This document shows, in pieces, positions 1-7,616 of a DNA stretch of 7,616 nt. The stretch comes from Deltaproteobacteria bacterium (GTDB taxonomy: Bacteria > JAUYMQ01): positions 1 through 7,616 of the forward strand of contig JAUYMQ010000538.1 in the NCBI GenBank assembly GCA_030698575.1, given 5' to 3'. Made by a program: the position numbers and the translations under genes. Position 1 is the stretch's first letter, and each line of letters begins with the position of its first letter. Below the pieces are notes generated by a model, which worked only from the letters and a program-made list of their open reading frames with translations, ran no database searches and was not told where the DNA came from.

Positions 1-474
1 GTACTCCCCCACGCCGATCAGGAAGAGCAGTTGGAAGCCCGCGAGCGCAAGGACGGCCGCGAGCGCACCCGCCGCCCCCGGCACCCCCCGCCCGAGCGCC
101 CGCGTCGCCACGAGGAGGGGAAGCAGGATGAGCCAGTTGAAGTGGGTGCTCCGGGCGTCGATCTTCGTTCCAGTAGCCGGGATCTTCGCCCAGAGATGAA
201 CGTAGAACGTCCGGTCCACGAGCGTCACCTGGTGATGGGTGACGCGGGGGGTGAGACGATGGAGCGCCGCGCTGGCCGCGCCGGCGAGGAGCCGCTCGTA
301 GGCCGGCGAAGCAGCGATCCAGAGGGCCCAGCCAAGCAGGTAGGCCAGGACGAAGGCCGCCGTGAAACGCCGGAGATCAAGCCCCCCGGGGGGGTCGCGC
401 GGCGGGGACGGCGCGCCGGGCCCAGAGGAGCCAGAGGAGGACGGCGGCCCCGATGACGACGGACTGCCATACAT
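1..474 (-). CDS. Exosortase H-associated-type membrane protein (partial, runs off left edge)
   Basis: This open frame follows xrtH directly on the minus strand and is still open at base 1, so only the first 158 codons are seen. I translated it by hand. A hydrophobic helix lies near residues 39-55. A soluble stretch follows at about 57-110, containing VTLVDRTFYVHLWAKIPATG. The segment THFNWLILLPLLVATRALG (about 110-128) starts a second helix, and a third lies near 136-156. A short-loop membrane protein with a Thr-His-Phe-Asn motif next to XrtH matches my memory of the exosortase H-associated membrane protein family, whose exact role is unknown. The only in-frame ATG is at 474, preceded by a weak GAGGGAG-like site. 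It would overlap xrtH by 98 bases and give an odd Ser/Pro/Gly-rich N-terminus of about 30 residues, so the true start may be a non-ATG codon nearer 376. Coding is well supported by the helix pattern; the family name is moderately sure. Confidence 0.7.
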   Translation of the reverse strand, partial: MYGSPSSSGPPSSSGSSGPGAPSPPRDPPGGLDLRRFTAAFVLAYLLGWALWIAASPAYERLLAGAASAALHRLTPRVTHHQVTLVDRTFYVHLWAKIPATGTKIDARSTHFNWLILLPLLVATRALGRGVPGAAGALAAVLALAGFQLLFLIGVGEY

Positions 475-943
475 AGATGTGGGCTCCCTCGAAGGCGCCC
501 GGATAGTGGAGGACGATGTAGTACAGGCTCAGGACGCGGATCAGGTTGATGACGAAGATGGCGGCAAAGCCGGCGGCGACGCCGATGAGCTTCGCCCGCA
601 TAGTGCTCGGGAAGGCCAGCACGGCCGAGACGAAGATGATCGTCGCCCAGACGCCGTTGCAGCCGTTGCGCAGCTCGAAGGAGACGCCGCGGCCGGCGAG
701 CCGCGTGCCGCTGGCATGGGCGTCGGTGCCGAGGAGCTGAAGCGTCGCGCTTGACACCTTCGCGATGAACGCCGTGAACGGATTGATCGCCCGCTCGACG
801 ACAGGCGCGTAGATGCTCAGGTAGTAGCCGGCCCCGAGAAACGCTCCGAAGAGCAGGCAGAACACGATCGTCCGCCGGTTCTCGTCCCTTCCGGCCCGCG
901 ATCCCTGCCGCGGGATCGGGGGACGGCCGCCGTTCGGCGCCAT
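377..943 (-). CDS. xrtH: Exosortase, XrtH type (membrane transpeptidase-like sorting enzyme)
   Basis: This 188-residue integral membrane protein belongs to the exosortase/archaeosortase family. These enzymes are proposed to cleave C-terminal sorting signals at the inner membrane and pass the protein on toward the surface. The expected triad is visible: Cys95 in RNGCNGVW, Arg136 in INLIRVLSL, and His155 in FEGAHIYVWQ. Helices lie near residues 25-45, 97-113, 116-145 and 158-175. The short length and the NGCNGV form of the cysteine motif (instead of the ACSGL-like form of EpsH/XrtA) point to XrtH, a type described as specific for IPTL-CTERM signals. The start ATG at 943 lies 12 bases after the upstream lipoprotein gene, with only a weak GCGG-like ribosome site, so translational coupling is likely. 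Oddly, the substrates seen in this window carry classical PEP signals. Membership in the superfamily is very sure; the subtype is fairly sure. Confidence 0.88.
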   Translation of the reverse strand: MAPNGGRPPIPRQGSRAGRDENRRTIVFCLLFGAFLGAGYYLSIYAPVVERAINPFTAFIAKVSSATLQLLGTDAHASGTRLAGRGVSFELRNGCNGVWATIIFVSAVLAFPSTMRAKLIGVAAGFAAIFVINLIRVLSLYYIVLHYPGAFEGAHIYVWQSVVIGAAVLLWLLWARRAVPAARPPRGA

Positions 944-955
944 GCGTCCGCCGCG

Positions 956-1987
956 TCAGCTGCCGGCTGCCGGCGGGGCTTCCTCCGCGGGCGCGGGCGC
1001 GGCCTCCGGCGCCTCGCCTGCCGGCGGTTCACCGGCCGGTTCGCCGGGCTGAGCCTCTCCCAGCTCCTCCAGGATAATCGCGTTCGTGATCTCGTAGGTG
1101 AGCGTCCCCGACATGAAGACGTCGTTCACCAGGAACGCCGGAGTTCCGCGCACGCCGATGGTCTTCCCCTCGTCGACGTTGGCGAGGATGGCCTCGGTCT
1201 GCTCCGCCTCGAGGTAGCACTTGTTGAACGCGTCCATGTCGATGCCTTCGTCCTTCACCTGCTCCCGGCTCTTCTCGAAGACGTTGGTTTGATTAATCAC
1301 GGTCGACTGCGTGTAGTAGAAGTCGTGGAGCTTCCAGAAAAGTTCAGGCTTCTGCACGCGCGCGCACTCGGCGAGAAGCGAGGAGTCCATCGCCCAGTCG
1401 TGGATCTTGAGCGGGTAGTGCTTGTACACCAGCTTCACGCGCCCCTCGTATTCGCGGAGGATCTGATCTATCGCCGGCTGGCTGGCCCGGCAGTAGGGGC
1501 ACTGGAAATCCGAGTACTCGACGATTGTCACTTCCGCGTCGGCATTGCCCCGCACCGGCACGTCCGTGAGCTTGACGTTGTCGAGGTCGACGCGCATGCG
1601 GGGGATTATTCCGAGAGGGAGAATGGACCCCGCGACGGCGAACTTCATGTCGGGGGTGACGGGGAGCCGGCGAACGGCCGATCGTCCCTCGCGGGTCACA
1701 CGCAGCTTCAGCTCCACGAGCCCGGGAACTCCCGTGGGTGCGGCCCCGACGACTTCGATCTTGGTTTCACGCGAAGCCCCCATGGTCAGGCGGACCTTTT
1801 CGATTTCTTCCTCCGCCTTTTTCACCACAGCGTCGAGATCGGCCTCGGCCGAGGGCGCCGCGGACTCGGTAGCGGGAACACCGGCCTCCTTCGCGGGCGA
1901 ACAGGCGGCCAGGGGCGCAAGGGCGAGCGCCGGGACAAGCGCAACGGCCGGCAGGACGCCGGCGATGATCCTGAAACGAGACTGCAT
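956..1987 (-). CDS. DsbA-family thioredoxin-fold lipoprotein (CPYC)
   Basis: This 343-residue protein begins with a lipoprotein signal peptide ending in a lipobox (LAAC, Cys29), so it should be lipid-anchored and face the periplasm. Residues about 35-140 form a family-specific N-terminal part. The DsbA/thioredoxin-like domain spans about 145-312: VEYSDFQCPYC carries the redox pair Cys163/Cys166, and GTP at 281-283 supplies the expected cis-proline. Extra cysteines occur at 208 and 257. The C-terminal 30 residues are a Pro/Ala/Glu-rich tail. The likely role is thiol oxidation, reduction or isomerisation of exported proteins; its direction cannot be read from sequence. The start at 1987 has a strong AGGAGGA site at 1996-2002 (8-base spacer). 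It lies 24 bases after a paralog and 12 bases before the exosortase gene, which suggests it serves the sorting system. The fold assignment is secure; the exact substrate is unknown. Confidence 0.92.
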   Translation of the reverse strand: MQSRFRIIAGVLPAVALVPALALAPLAACSPAKEAGVPATESAAPSAEADLDAVVKKAEEEIEKVRLTMGASRETKIEVVGAAPTGVPGLVELKLRVTREGRSAVRRLPVTPDMKFAVAGSILPLGIIPRMRVDLDNVKLTDVPVRGNADAEVTIVEYSDFQCPYCRASQPAIDQILREYEGRVKLVYKHYPLKIHDWAMDSSLLAECARVQKPELFWKLHDFYYTQSTVINQTNVFEKSREQVKDEGIDMDAFNKCYLEAEQTEAILANVDEGKTIGVRGTPAFLVNDVFMSGTLTYEITNAIILEELGEAQPGEPAGEPPAGEAPEAAPAPAEEAPPAAGS

Positions 1988-2011
1988 CTCTTGGTTCCTC
2001 CTGTGCGGGCT

Positions 2012-2989
2012 TCAGCCCGCGAGCTGACCCGCCTTCTTGAGCTCCTCCTGGATGATCTCCTCGAGAACCGGAAGGGGCTGGTTGCCGATGACCACCACGC
2101 CGTTGATGACGAACGTGGGCGTCGAGGTGAAGCCGTAGTTGATCGCCTCGTTCAGGTCATAGTCGATTCTTGCCTTCGGCTCCTGGCTTTCGACGCAGGC
2201 GTTGAGCTTGCCGATGTCGAGGTCGAGGGTCTTCGCGAAGCTCTCCGTCTTGTCCTTGAAGTTATCCTCATCGAGCCGCTTGGAAGGATCGAAGAAGTAG
2301 TCGTGGAAGTACCAGAACGCTTCCGGCTTCTGCGCCGCGGCGCATTCGGACGTGATGGCGGCGTCATAGGCCCAGGCGTGAAGTTCCGAGAGCGGCATGT
2401 GCTTGAAGACGAGCCGCACCTTGCCATCGTACTTCTTCATGATGGCGTTCACGGTGCGTGAAGCCGCGCCGCAGAAAGGGCACTGAAAGTCGGAATACTC
2501 GGCGATCACGATGGGCGCCGCTTCGGGGCCTTTCGCGGGCCGATCGAGCAGCACCATGTTGCGCGTCTCGACGCGCGCCCGGAACACCTCGCCCACCGTG
2601 TAGACGGGCCCCATCACGAAGTGCTTCGCTTCCGCGTCGAAAAAGAAGGATCGCCGCCCCTGGACGCCGCCCACCTCGATCACGAAATTCGCTTCGAACA
2701 TTCCCGTGTAAGGCGCCTTCTTCACCCACTCGAGCGTCACCTTTGCGGTGCTCGGCACCTTGTTCGTGATGATAAAGTCCTGCATGTTGGCCTGGATCTT
2801 CTCGGCGACTTCCTGCGACTCGGCGTCGAGAGCGACGCGGCCGGGAGGCGGGGTCTGTATTTCGCCTTTCTCCCCCGATCCTTCTCCGCATCCCCAGACG
2901 GCCATGAGCAGGCCGAGCAAGAGGGCAGCGGCGCCGGCCGCACTGCGGCGCGAGCTCCCGGAAATTGCGTAACGTCGAGGCTTGGGCAT
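2012..2989 (-). CDS. DsbA-family thioredoxin-fold lipoprotein (CPFC), first gene of the exosortase operon
   Basis: This 325-residue protein is a diverged paralog of the next gene. From the chosen start, residues 17-34 form a hydrophobic signal ending at a lipobox-like MAVWGC (Cys34; Trp at -2 is unusual). The redox domain has AEYSDFQCPFC with Cys170/Cys173, then HMPLSELHAWAYDA, further cysteines at 216 and 265, and the cis-proline in STPTFVING (Pro291). The N-terminal region of about 50-145 resembles its neighbour's in length and placement, so both share one architecture. The frame stays open to an upstream ATG at 3052, but the ATG at 2989 is preferred: it has an AAGGAGGA site seven bases upstream and puts the signal peptide at the N-terminus. 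It probably opens the operon that ends in the exosortase genes. Two different active-site dipeptides (Pro-Phe, Pro-Tyr) may mean two different redox roles or partners. Confidence 0.92.
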   Translation of the reverse strand: MPKPRRYAISGSSRRSAAGAAALLLGLLMAVWGCGEGSGEKGEIQTPPPGRVALDAESQEVAEKIQANMQDFIITNKVPSTAKVTLEWVKKAPYTGMFEANFVIEVGGVQGRRSFFFDAEAKHFVMGPVYTVGEVFRARVETRNMVLLDRPAKGPEAAPIVIAEYSDFQCPFCGAASRTVNAIMKKYDGKVRLVFKHMPLSELHAWAYDAAITSECAAAQKPEAFWYFHDYFFDPSKRLDEDNFKDKTESFAKTLDLDIGKLNACVESQEPKARIDYDLNEAINYGFTSTPTFVINGVVVIGNQPLPVLEEIIQEELKKAGQLAG

Positions 2990-3603: not shown

Positions 3604-3619
3604 TGGCACATGGCTTGCA
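3604..3619 (+). promoter_or_regulatory. Sigma-54 (RpoN) promoter
   Basis: TTGGCACATGGCTTGCA matches the consensus TGGCAC-N5-TTGCA. The invariant GG (3605-3606) and GC (3617-3618) are separated by exactly ten bases. The expected transcript start is near 3630, about 290 bases before the ATG at 3923. Known PEP-CTERM/exosortase systems of the EpsH type are tied to RpoN and the PrsK/PrsR two-component pair, so the site fits the neighbourhood. No sigma-54 activator gene is in the window. Confidence 0.8.
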
Positions 3620-3629
3620 CTATCCGGGG

Positions 3630-3922
3630 TCGGGCTTCATGTGCTGATCCAGCCAGGGGATCTTTTCCCCTGGGGAAGCCGTCAGCAACGGCTCTTTTGG
3701 AAGGGCGACGGAAACTGAAGGGAAAACGCCGGGCCTCCGGGGGAAAAATCGGGGGCGCGGTGGCCGGCAACGGCCAGGTTCCCGACGCGGCCCCGGGCCA
3801 ACCCGAGAGGGGGTGAGCGTCTCTTCCGTATGAATGTTTCTAAGCTAGTAAGGGTAATGAGGGTATCGCTAAGCAAGAAGTCGAAACACTGAGGGTTAAT
3901 CTTCCAAGGAGGTCTAGACCCC
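3630..3922 (+). ncRNA. Long structured 5' leader of the secreted-protein gene, possible cis-regulatory RNA
   Basis: No gene lies here, but the predicted transcript is rich in stem-loops. CCAGGGGA/TCCCCTGG at 3653-3660 and 3666-3673 has a five-base loop. AGCCGT/ACGGCT at 3677-3682 and 3688-3693 is followed by CTTTT, like a weak intrinsic terminator. TGGCCG/CGGCCA at 3761-3776 is closed by a GCAA (GNRA) tetraloop. Further G-runs and C-runs lie between 3720 and 3815. I could not match it to a named riboswitch. A terminator-like hairpin early in the leader suggests attenuation, but this is inference. Confidence 0.45.
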
Positions 3923-5254
3923 ATGAGAAAGCTGACTGCGTTAGTTTTTGCAGTGGCGCTTGTGTTGGGTGGAACGTCAATGGCGTTCGCCCAGGCGACC
4001 TATACGTTTGATACGGTTCGCAGCGCAGGCGCACACGAGATCTGGCCGAACCAGGCCAACTCGCCGAACACGTTCGAAGCGGATGGCGGTCTTCTCGGCC
4101 GCGTGGTGACGACCGCTGGTGGCGCAACGCCGGTTCTGAACCCGGCCGTGGCGAACGCCTGCGAGCTCGCACCGAGCTTTGACTGCTCCGGAACCACCCC
4201 GCCGGTCTTCCTGCTTCCGGCGGGTGCTGCTGAGGGTCCGGCCGGTGCGGGCGGCGGTTCGGAGTGTAACCGCGTTGTCAACGCTTGTAACGCGGCGCCC
4301 ATCCCGAGCGGGGGACACGGCGGCCACTTGAACGAGACCGAGGGTAGCTACAGCTACCTGGTCATCCACACGCCTTCCCAGGGCACGAACCCGGCCGGCA
4401 AAGGCATTGGGTTCTTCACGGGTAGCTATCAGATCGTGCAGCAGCCCTACCTCTGCAACGATTGCCCCGTGGGCGGCGCTGGCAAGGACATCGACAACCA
4501 GCTCGCCATGGACAACACGGGCCCGGGCTCGGTTGCCCAGAGCACCAACGTCACGCTCTGGCTCTCCCAGTCCACCGCGCCCTTCGGCCACGCGCTCGTT
4601 TCTCTCCAGAGCGCGGGTCCCGGGAAGCTCAGCCCCTGCGGCTCCGGCATCGTCTTCCAGGATCTCACTACGGATCTTTGCGTCGACGGTCTGCAGGGTG
4701 GCGTGGGTAACTTCCTCATCCCGGCACAGAAGGTCGTTGCTCGCAACTACTCGGTCAACCTGGCCAACCATTCGGCGTTTGGCGCCAACTCGGGCCTCTG
4801 CAACGCGCCGGACTGCTACGTCGAAAACGTGATCATCCCGGCGGCGCTTACTCAGAACGCCGGAACGCTCAACGTTCAGACGCAGTCGGCCACCAGCGTT
4901 CTTCCTTCGACCGCACCGGGCAGCCTCGCGAACGCGACGGTCGACTCGCTCCTCTTCTTCCTCACCACCCAGCAGCTGGATATGGATGGCGACGGAACCG
5001 AGGACCGGATCGACCCGTGTCCGAACGACCCGGCGAACGGTTGTCTGTTCAACGTGCTCACCAGCTCGGCTTGCCCCGCTGGCACGGTCTTCTGCAACGA
5101 CCTGGCCGGCACACCGGGCTGCTACTCGGCATCCCTCTGCGAGACACGGCGTGACGTCGACCAGAACTGCTTCGTCGATGGCGGTGACCTTAACACCGTT
5201 CAGAACACGCTGTTCTTCAACAACCCGTTCCCGATCGGCCCGTTCGATCCATGA
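3923..5254 (+). CDS. Secreted cysteine-rich protein with TSP3-like and half-dockerin-like calcium motifs
   Basis: This 443-residue protein has a clear Sec signal peptide (MRKLTALVFAVALVLGG...) with a likely cut after AFA or AQA near residues 23-25. The mature part has no named domain that I recognise over about 30-345, but carries 17 cysteines, many in close pairs (Cys80/88, 115/122, 178/181, 293/298, 366/374). Near the end, DMDGDGTEDRIDPC (353-366) is a thrombospondin type 3-like calcium motif, and DVDQNCFVDGGDLNTV (411-426) looks like a single dockerin/F-hand repeat. The protein stops at FPIGPFDP without a PEP-CTERM or other anchor, so it is probably released or held by partners. The start is supported by AAGGAGG at 3906-3912. 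It follows a sigma-54 promoter and long leader and precedes two PEP-CTERM genes, suggesting a surface or matrix role. High disulfide potential makes it a candidate client of the DsbA-like proteins. Confidence 0.88.
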   Translation: MRKLTALVFAVALVLGGTSMAFAQATYTFDTVRSAGAHEIWPNQANSPNTFEADGGLLGRVVTTAGGATPVLNPAVANACELAPSFDCSGTTPPVFLLPAGAAEGPAGAGGGSECNRVVNACNAAPIPSGGHGGHLNETEGSYSYLVIHTPSQGTNPAGKGIGFFTGSYQIVQQPYLCNDCPVGGAGKDIDNQLAMDNTGPGSVAQSTNVTLWLSQSTAPFGHALVSLQSAGPGKLSPCGSGIVFQDLTTDLCVDGLQGGVGNFLIPAQKVVARNYSVNLANHSAFGANSGLCNAPDCYVENVIIPAALTQNAGTLNVQTQSATSVLPSTAPGSLANATVDSLLFFLTTQQLDMDGDGTEDRIDPCPNDPANGCLFNVLTSSACPAGTVFCNDLAGTPGCYSASLCETRRDVDQNCFVDGGDLNTVQNTLFFNNPFPIGPFDP

Positions 5255-5424: not shown

Positions 5425-6063
5425 ATGAGAGTCCGCCATCTGTTGATTGCATCAATGGTGGTATTAGGCCTCGTCATCGCCCCGGTCACGGCCAAGGCCA
5501 TCGTGGTCGACTGGGAGATCGAGGTCCTGGTGAACAACGTCTCGCAGGGCACCGCCAGCTCCGCCGGCGGGATCCTCGACGTGAGCGTTGCCGTGGGCGA
5601 CACCGTACGCTTCATCGTCGGCGTCTCGGCCCTCGGGACGGGCACCCTGACCACCTACACGACGTCCGTCACGTCTGACGATCCGCTCGAGATCGACTAC
5701 ACCATCAACAGCGCCGTCGATCTGACGGGGCTCGGCTTCACGAGCGGCGCGCAGCCGAACGCCACGTTGAACGACGCTTCCCCGGGTGACGGCGCGGTGA
5801 ACGCCAACGCCGGCGCAGTGGCGCAGGTGCTCGACCTCTACCGGCTCGACTACGTCGTGCAGGCAGGCGTCGACAGCACTGCGGGCGTTGACTTCACCGC
5901 TCGCGGTATCATCGTCACGACCGGTGGCGACACCGCCACCACCGGCACCGCCCAGGTTCGCCTGAACGCGGGCGTTGCGGTCCCCGAACCCGCCACGATG
6001 CTGCTCCTCGGCAGCGGTCTGGCAGGCCTCGCGGGCTTCGGCCGGAAGAAGCTCCGAAAGTAA
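5425..6063 (+). CDS. PEP-CTERM sorting-signal protein, copy A
   Basis: This 212-residue exported protein has a signal peptide (1-25, cut after AKA). A mature region of about 26-184 has no cysteine, is rich in Thr, Gly, Val and Asp, and is probably all beta. The C-terminal tripartite sorting signal starts at VPEPATM (186-192), continues as the helix LLLGSGLAGLAGFG, and ends in the basic tail RKKLRK. This is the classical PEP-CTERM form, expected to be cut by an exosortase after the tail lodges in the inner membrane. AAGGAG at 5411-5416 lies eight bases before the ATG. No clear promoter is visible in the 170 bases upstream, so it may be read through from the secreted-protein gene. The core is about 92 percent identical to the copy at 6739. 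The mature domain's function is unknown to me; a surface or extracellular-matrix role is inferred. Confidence 0.92.
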   Translation: MRVRHLLIASMVVLGLVIAPVTAKAIVVDWEIEVLVNNVSQGTASSAGGILDVSVAVGDTVRFIVGVSALGTGTLTTYTTSVTSDDPLEIDYTINSAVDLTGLGFTSGAQPNATLNDASPGDGAVNANAGAVAQVLDLYRLDYVVQAGVDSTAGVDFTARGIIVTTGGDTATTGTAQVRLNAGVAVPEPATMLLLGSGLAGLAGFGRKKLRK

Positions 6064-6165: not shown

Positions 6166-6401
6166 CGCATGTCATCGCGAGGAGCCCCTTCCCGCATGTC
6201 ATTGCGAGGAGCGCAGCGACGAAGCAATCCCCCGGCAGCCCACCCCCCGCATGTCATTGCGAGGAGCCCCTTCCCGCATGTCATTGCGAGGAGCCCCTTC
6301 CGCATGTCATTGCGAGGAGCGAAGCGACGAAGCAATCCCCCGGCAGCCCACCCCCCGCATGTCATTGCGAGGAGGGCCGCAGGCCCGACGAAGCAATCCC
6401 C
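6166..6401. repeat. Mosaic array of six REP-like units, full and half length
   Basis: Six copies start with CGCATGTCAT at 6166, 6193, 6248, 6275, 6301 and 6356. Those at 6193, 6301 and 6356 are full units whose ends ATTGCG and GCAAT form the arms of a hairpin. Those at 6166, 6248 and 6275 stop after GCGAGGAGCCCCTTCC. Spacing is 26-27 bases for short units and 55 for full ones. The last unit has a different tip, GGGCC-GCA-GGCCC. The sequence belongs to a repeat widespread in bacterial genomes that yields the spurious peptide CHCEERSDEAI, from memory. It is mobile-like or REP-like, not coding; the frames crossing it should be ignored. Confidence 0.85.
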
Positions 6402-6535: not shown

Positions 6536-6725
6536 TGCTCCATGTATCCGCGCCCTCCCCCCCTAGAACCGGGCGGACGGGCCGACCTGACGCCGGAGCA
6601 CCGGGCTGCGGGACTTAACGCGAGGGCCGACGGGCGGCGCTCGCAGGCAAGCCACGGCTCCGGGAACAACGCGCGCAGATCCATCAAGGGAACACCAGAT
6701 CACGAGTGGATCGCATCGCAGGCAT

Positions 6726-6730
6726 GGAGG
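6726..6730 (+). promoter_or_regulatory. Ribosome binding site that fixes the start of copy B at 6739
   Basis: GGAGG eight bases before the ATG at 6739. An in-frame GTG at 6706 would lengthen the protein by 11 residues and break the alignment with copy A, which begins MRVR against MRGR here. Confidence 0.8.
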
Positions 6731-6738
6731 AACAAGTC

Positions 6739-7377
6739 ATGAGGGGTCGCTTCCGCTTCACGCTCTTATTCGCAGCTCTGGGCATCGTCGCGATGCCCAT
6801 CACGGCCAACGCCATCGTGGTCGACTGGGAGATCGAGGTCCTGGTGAACACGGTCTCGCAGGGCACGGCCAGTTCCGCCGGCCCCATCCTGGACGTGACC
6901 GTCAACGCGGGCGACACCGTGCGCTTCATCGCCGGCGTCTCGGCCCTCGGGACGGGCACCCTGACCACCTACACGACGTCCGTCACGGCTGACGACCCGC
7001 TTGAGATCGACTACACCATCAACAGCGCCGTCGATCTGACGGGGCTCGGCTTCACGAGCGGCGCGCAGCCGAACGCCACGCTGAACGATACCAATCCGGA
7101 TGACGGCCAGGTGAACGCCAACGCGGGCGCGGTGGCGCAGGTGCTCGACCTCTACCGGCTCGACTACGTCGTGCAGGCAGGCGTCGACAGCACTGCGGGC
7201 GTGGACTTCACCGTTCGCGGCATCATCGTCACGACCGGCGGCGACACCGCGACCACCGGCACCGCGCGCGTGCGCCTCAACGCCGGGGTGGGAATCCCCG
7301 AGCCGGGAACGATTCTCCTGCTCGGCAGCGGCCTGGCCGCCATGGCGGGCTTCGGCCGCCGGCGGGCGCGCCGGTAG
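6739..7377 (+). CDS. PEP-CTERM sorting-signal protein, copy B
   Basis: This 212-residue protein aligns without gaps to the copy at 5425. It has a signal peptide (1-25, cut after ANA), a cysteine-free mature core (26-184) with only about 13 substitutions, and a C-terminal sorting signal: IPEPGTI (186-192), the helix LLLGSGLAAMAGFG and the tail RRRARR. Two stretches, 78 bases (7003-7080) and 71 bases (7132-7202), are identical in both genes including silent sites, so duplication or gene conversion is recent. The signal peptide and sorting tail have changed much more. It has its own sigma-28-type promoter and leader, unlike copy A, so the two are probably expressed under different conditions. 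It is a probable exosortase substrate exported to the surface; the core's activity is unknown. Confidence 0.92.
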   Translation: MRGRFRFTLLFAALGIVAMPITANAIVVDWEIEVLVNTVSQGTASSAGPILDVTVNAGDTVRFIAGVSALGTGTLTTYTTSVTADDPLEIDYTINSAVDLTGLGFTSGAQPNATLNDTNPDDGQVNANAGAVAQVLDLYRLDYVVQAGVDSTAGVDFTVRGIIVTTGGDTATTGTARVRLNAGVGIPEPGTILLLGSGLAAMAGFGRRRARR

Positions 7378-7477: not shown

Positions 7478-7616
7478 ATCGGGATAGGGGACGGCGGGGT
7501 TCGCCCCGCCGTTCCCCTCCCACACCACCGGACATGCGGGTCCGCATCCGGCGGTTCGAAAGGTTGAGGTTACGCGGCGAGCCGGGGTACTCCTAGCTCG
7601 TCGAAGTAGCGAATGG
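7478..7616 (-). mobile_element. Probable 3' end of a group II intron (partial)
   Basis: Read on the minus strand, a short reading-frame end is followed by two strong stem-loops, as in group II introns after the maturase gene. The first (7525-7554) has an eight-pair outer stem, a two-base bulge on the 3' side and a five-pair inner stem, like domain V, but it lacks the usual AGC near its base and a GNRA cap. The second pairs 7492-7499 with 7504-7511 around a four-base loop (CGAA on this strand), with a further G/C extension, in the place of domain VI. The phrase GGTGGTGTGGGAGGGG between them is one I associate with reverse-transcriptase introns. The boundary near 7478-7486 is a guess, and the body lies outside the window. 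Confidence 0.45.
7570..7616 (-). CDS. C-terminal tail of a probable group II intron reverse transcriptase/maturase (partial)
   Basis: Only the last 14 codons and the TAA stop are in the window: IRYFDELGVPRLAA. Tails of the form FDELGxPRL occur, as I recall, at the end of intron-encoded reverse transcriptases, and the intron-like hairpins just downstream support this. The fragment is too short for certainty; it could belong to another mobile-element protein. Confidence 0.45.
   Translation of the reverse strand, partial: IRYFDELGVPRLAA

Follow-up and report, generated by a model that had tools for sequence, protein, structure and literature searches.

Two thioredoxin-fold lipoprotein genes precede an exosortase H gene in an apparently private arrangement

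To our knowledge, the cysteine chemistry of exosortases has been little studied, and a true link between such an enzyme and thiol-exchange proteins encoded beside it would give the first redox partner of an exosortase. The described systems closest to the locus reported here are exosortase H (TIGR04177), the DsbC/DsbG isomerases, DsbA/BdbD together with DsbA-like proteins of solved structure, and the Rcas_1661 thioredoxin-like (seleno)lipoprotein family (NF041057). DsbG has been described as a protector of single-cysteine periplasmic transpeptidases against sulfenylation (PMC3526765), and PEP-CTERM genes of Proteobacteria have been described with upstream sigma-54 sites (PMC1569441). An earlier note on this DNA had proposed that two DsbA-like lipoproteins form a functional unit with the adjacent exosortase, either by keeping its cysteine reduced or by folding disulfide-bonded substrates before sorting.

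The window, meaning the whole stretch of DNA analysed, is 7616 bases long and makes up an entire contig (C634) of the 4.13 Mb genome of an uncultured bacterium, which is assembled in 653 contigs with an estimated contamination of 4.6%. The minus strand carries D2 (2012–2989), which opens the run, its paralogue D1 (956–1987), xrtH (377–943) and a partial ORF (1–474), which is cut by the contig end and whose true start is uncertain. Since the window is the entire contig, the dsb-xrtH operon is truncated at its 3' end. D2 and D1 are separated by 24 bases, and D1 and xrtH by 12. Strong ribosome sites were found for D2 (ggaggaag) and D1 (aggaggaa) and a weaker one for xrtH, and the GC content of 0.83–0.90 at codon position 3 in D2, D1 and xrtH indicated that all three are real genes. 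Together, the short gaps, the ribosome sites of D2 and D1 and the uniform codon-position GC support a predicted single transcript for D2-D1-xrtH. The coordinates, the gaps and the Pfam and TIGR04177 matches all agreed with the earlier description of two thioredoxin-fold lipoproteins (CPFC and CPYC) beside an exosortase H, and the co-expression that had been read from the spacing is likewise supported by the operon-like gaps and ribosome sites.

The xrtH product matched the TIGR04177 exosortase H model with 110.7 bits (E 6.6e-32), which exceeds the curated cut-off of 86, and its catalytic residues Cys95, Arg136 and His155 were invariant in an alignment of 11 XrtH sequences. The two cysteines of XrtH are Cys29, which lies in the first membrane segment, and Cys95 of the catalytic site, which is likely to be the only one that faces the periplasm. 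The partial ORF was recovered by a model of XrtH-associated membrane proteins built without it (leave-one-out E 8.1e-24), and members of this partner family lie downstream of xrtH in 83 of 97 XrtH loci. The window therefore resembles known exosortase H in its score, in the presence of the Cys, Arg and His residues and in the usual membrane partner downstream; what sets it apart is the two thiol-exchange lipoprotein genes that precede xrtH. Here, two additional genes stand in front of a standard pair of xrtH and its partner.

Both D1 and D2 displayed the hallmarks of the DsbA family: matches to PF01323 (DSBA; E 2.4e-16 for D1 and 1.6e-17 for D2) and PF13462 (Thioredoxin_4; E 1.1e-29 and 1.5e-26, respectively) that lie above the Pfam cut-offs, a CPxC active site (QCPYC in D1 and QCPFC in D2) and a cis-proline. 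A Thr precedes the cis-proline in each protein, within a GTP loop in D1 and a TS-TP loop in D2, and an additional conserved cysteine pair is present in both. The signal peptide of D1 ends in a good lipobox (...PLAAC), and that of D2 ends in ...AVWGC, which is acceptable and atypical, with a Trp at position −2. D1 also has a C-terminal tail rich in Ala, Pro and Glu. The two proteins share 32% identity, and their grouping as sisters in the tree (support 85/90), with a long branch for D1, indicated that they are an old duplicate pair.

Ten full-length members of the D1/D2 family could be aligned over both halves of the protein, and 8 of these 10 matched DsbC_N at E≤0.05 (best 2.8e-5). On D2 alone the DsbC_N match scored 20.0 bits, which is below the Pfam cut-off of 25, and none was listed for D1; nonetheless, the family-wide matches suggest that the N-terminal domain of D1 and D2 is likely DsbC_N-like. 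The Thr before the cis-proline in both proteins and the CPYC of D1 are features that we take to be DsbC/DsbG-like. The family shares with the DsbC/DsbG isomerases a putative DsbC_N-like domain, the Thr-cis-Pro and, in D1, the active-site dipeptide, and departs from them in a thioredoxin domain of DsbA/Thioredoxin_4 type with a helical insertion and the extra cysteine pair, and in a predicted lipid anchor. DsbA/BdbD and DsbA-like solved structures (among them 7unn, 4pwo, 3eu3 and 3gyk) have the thioredoxin domain and CPxC in common with D1 and D2, but cover only their C-terminal half. The DsbA-like identity given in the earlier note held for the thioredoxin domain, whereas the proteins as a whole appear better read as a DsbC/DsbG architecture that incorporates a DsbA-like thioredoxin domain with a Thr-cis-Pro. 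An AlphaFold model made from the two window sequences had a mean pLDDT of 50, too poor for a judgement of the fold. The top NCBIfam match of both D1 and D2 was NF041057 at 102.1 bits each, which reflects the thioredoxin domain; this score is well under the 190-bit cut-off and the match covers that domain alone. A selenoprotein reading was dropped on account of the ordinary CPxC in both proteins and the scores under the NF041057 cut-off.

The linkage of dsb-like genes to xrtH, which had been set beforehand as the test of a functional unit, was examined in XrtH loci drawn from three sets, namely a diverse sample of 386 genomes across the domain, 132 genomes of the Zixibacteria and 297 genomes of another large phylum. 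The sequence around 99 other XrtH loci was inspected for up to about 6 kb in each direction; including the window, 101 xrtH ORFs were counted, of which 86 had 3 kb or more upstream and 70 had 3 kb on both sides. Two profiles were applied at an E value of 0.01, one built from the thioredoxin-type proteins of the window genome and the other from D1, D2 and their full-length relatives. With both, relatives were found at 0 of the 99 other loci and only the two genes of the window matched, in a survey in which remote thioredoxins could escape the profiles, the XrtH of some loci is weak, and the window genome is the sole representative of its phylum. When genome contigs were scanned with an XrtH alignment, seven loci came up in the Zixibacteria and none was related to the window; viral contigs scanned with D2 and with XrtH yielded no relatives, and literature naming exosortase, DsbA, thioredoxin and operon together concerned unrelated contexts. 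A dsb-like neighbour at none of 99 loci suggests that the gene order is local and does not represent a conserved new system, and with the linkage seen, among the genomes sampled, in the window genome only, the proposed DsbA-exosortase unit was not borne out.

Relatives of D1 and D2 occur away from xrtH. Besides D1 and D2, the window genome itself has six Thioredoxin_4 genes on other contigs, which brings its matches to eight. When the diverse sample was searched with the D1+D2 profile, relatives at E≤1e-25 were present in 81 of its 386 genomes. These include nine of that sample's 21 other XrtH genomes, and none of their D-like genes is near xrtH; they lie on other contigs or, in genome G355, about 320 kb from xrtH. 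Relatives with the full architecture, from eight genomes, are located among housekeeping genes (argF/glmU/glmS-like, purB-like and similar), and an exosortase was absent from the 18 neighbourhoods of the best D1/D2 relatives, as searched with the XrtH profile and an EpsH-type query. Hence, within the genomes sampled, the suggestion that such genes are tied to xrtH did not survive, in view of the six further Thioredoxin_4 genes elsewhere in the genome and the housekeeping context of the relatives. A plasmid search with D2 returned only matches below 60% identity, none reaching 80% query coverage, and those listed were largely confined to the thioredoxin half. There are also large open frames of 600–1400 amino acids with several tandem D1/D2-like thioredoxin domains (G258:C128, G394:C53, G305:C13 and G377:C60), which are apparently multi-domain thioredoxin proteins.

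We favor, with a probability of roughly 0.6, a lineage-restricted operon in which a general thiol-exchange lipoprotein pair stands ahead of an ordinary xrtH and its partner; the operon is probably limited to a single lineage. D1 and D2 would be lipid-anchored in the envelope, where they may reduce or isomerise disulfides, or reverse single-cysteine oxidation, on several envelope proteins in the manner of DsbC/DsbG, and a transcript shared with xrtH would then amount to co-expression of envelope biogenesis genes and not to a dedicated partnership. A general role is favored by the lack of linkage at the 99 loci, the six other Thioredoxin_4 genes and the relatives among housekeeping genes without an exosortase. 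Against it stand the 24- and 12-base gaps and the good ribosome sites, which imply co-translation of the pair with xrtH. Alternatively, D1 and D2 could, like Escherichia coli DsbG, be a dedicated guard that would reduce a sulfenylated or mixed-disulfide Cys95 with electrons from a DsbD/CcdA-type transporter. Keeping Cys95 reduced is mechanistically reasonable, as it is one of only two cysteines in XrtH and Cys29 sits in a membrane segment, and the DsbG precedent with single-cysteine transpeptidases (PMC3526765) is in keeping with it, as are the CPYC of D1, the Thr before the cis-proline in both proteins and the putative DsbC_N-like domain. However, this part of the earlier proposal found no comparative support: the exposed cysteine is common to every XrtH, yet the pair is missing from all 99 other loci, which argues against a general requirement for a guard, and no D1/D2-like neighbour lies within 1.5 kb of the genome's second exosortase. 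We therefore consider a dedicated guard doubtful, and unlikelier still in the narrower form in which a lipid-anchored DsbC/DsbG-type pair serves Cys95 in the window's phylum and the redox state controls surface sorting.

A role in folding, in which D1 and D2 would form or shuffle disulfides in XrtH-sorted proteins before or during sorting, depends on what those proteins are. On the plus strand, upstream of the run, lies a divergent gene for a secreted protein with 17 cysteines (3923–5254), which could conceivably be a client of D1 and D2, and an IPTL-like candidate substrate fragment (L225) has five cysteines; however, the former lacks a recognised sorting signal. The two PEP-CTERM proteins of the window (5425–6063, PF07589 29.8 bits, and 6706–7377, PF07589 23.1 bits, both on the plus strand) are cysteine-free, and among the roughly 14 PEP-CTERM proteins of the genome most have 0–2 cysteines, some of them within leader or signal regions. 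A likelier enzyme for the PEP-CTERM cargo is the second exosortase, an EpsH-type protein on contig C317 (24749–25552; L207; 225.8 bits) whose neighbours encode an EpsI-like protein and polysaccharide/glycosyltransferase functions. Genome-wide, there are two or three IPTL-like proteins, and TIGR04174 (IPTLxxWG-CTERM) gave two matches barely above its cut-off (23.0 and 22.7 bits) and one below; in the Zixibacteria, at least one locus has IPTL-CTERM proteins upstream of xrtH. The folding proposal is weakened by the lack of cysteines in the adjacent PEP-CTERM proteins, which are likelier clients of the C317 enzyme, and we regard it as improbable, more so than a guard in general and less so than the phylum-specific version. 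Less probable than any of these is an artefact of assembly or binning, in which the contig joins unrelated pieces or comes from another organism. A short whole contig in a fragmented genome with some estimated contamination invites that reading, but the codon-position GC is uniform across the window genes and similar to that of other contigs of the genome, and the tight gene junctions carry ribosome sites. The general thiol-exchange pair in a lineage-restricted operon remains our preferred reading, and D2-D1-xrtH is a real, apparently private arrangement and not a new system. It provides a cautionary case, in which tight spacing in one genome was no guide to a conserved functional unit; the partner that follows xrtH at most loci and the putative DsbC_N-like domain in the thiol-exchange lipoproteins may be the more reusable side results.

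One exact match to the sigma-54 −24/−12 promoter pattern TGGCAC-N5-TTGC (3604–3618, plus strand; TGGCACATGGCTTGC), for which 0.38 matches are expected by chance when up to one mismatch is allowed, lies outside the dsb-xrtH run, in the gap that separates it from the divergent genes. Some 300 bases lie between this match and the gene of the 17-cysteine protein downstream at 3923, an unusually long leader for a site of the kind described for PEP-CTERM genes of Proteobacteria (PMC1569441). Within this leader, positions 3630–3830 (plus strand) folded strongly, at −99.3 kcal/mol with a z of −1.66, which is not clearly above shuffles, and matched no Rfam family. The two PEP-CTERM genes stand in tandem about 640 bases apart and encode near-identical products, and the real start of the second may be downstream of the listed GTG. 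Several copies of an intergenic repeat (GTCATTGCGAGGAGCGAAGCGACGAAGCAATCCC) are present between them at about 6170–6400. At the contig end, a group II intron Rfam match (7478–7556, minus strand; 40.6 bits against a gathering score of 40) possibly explains the contig break there.
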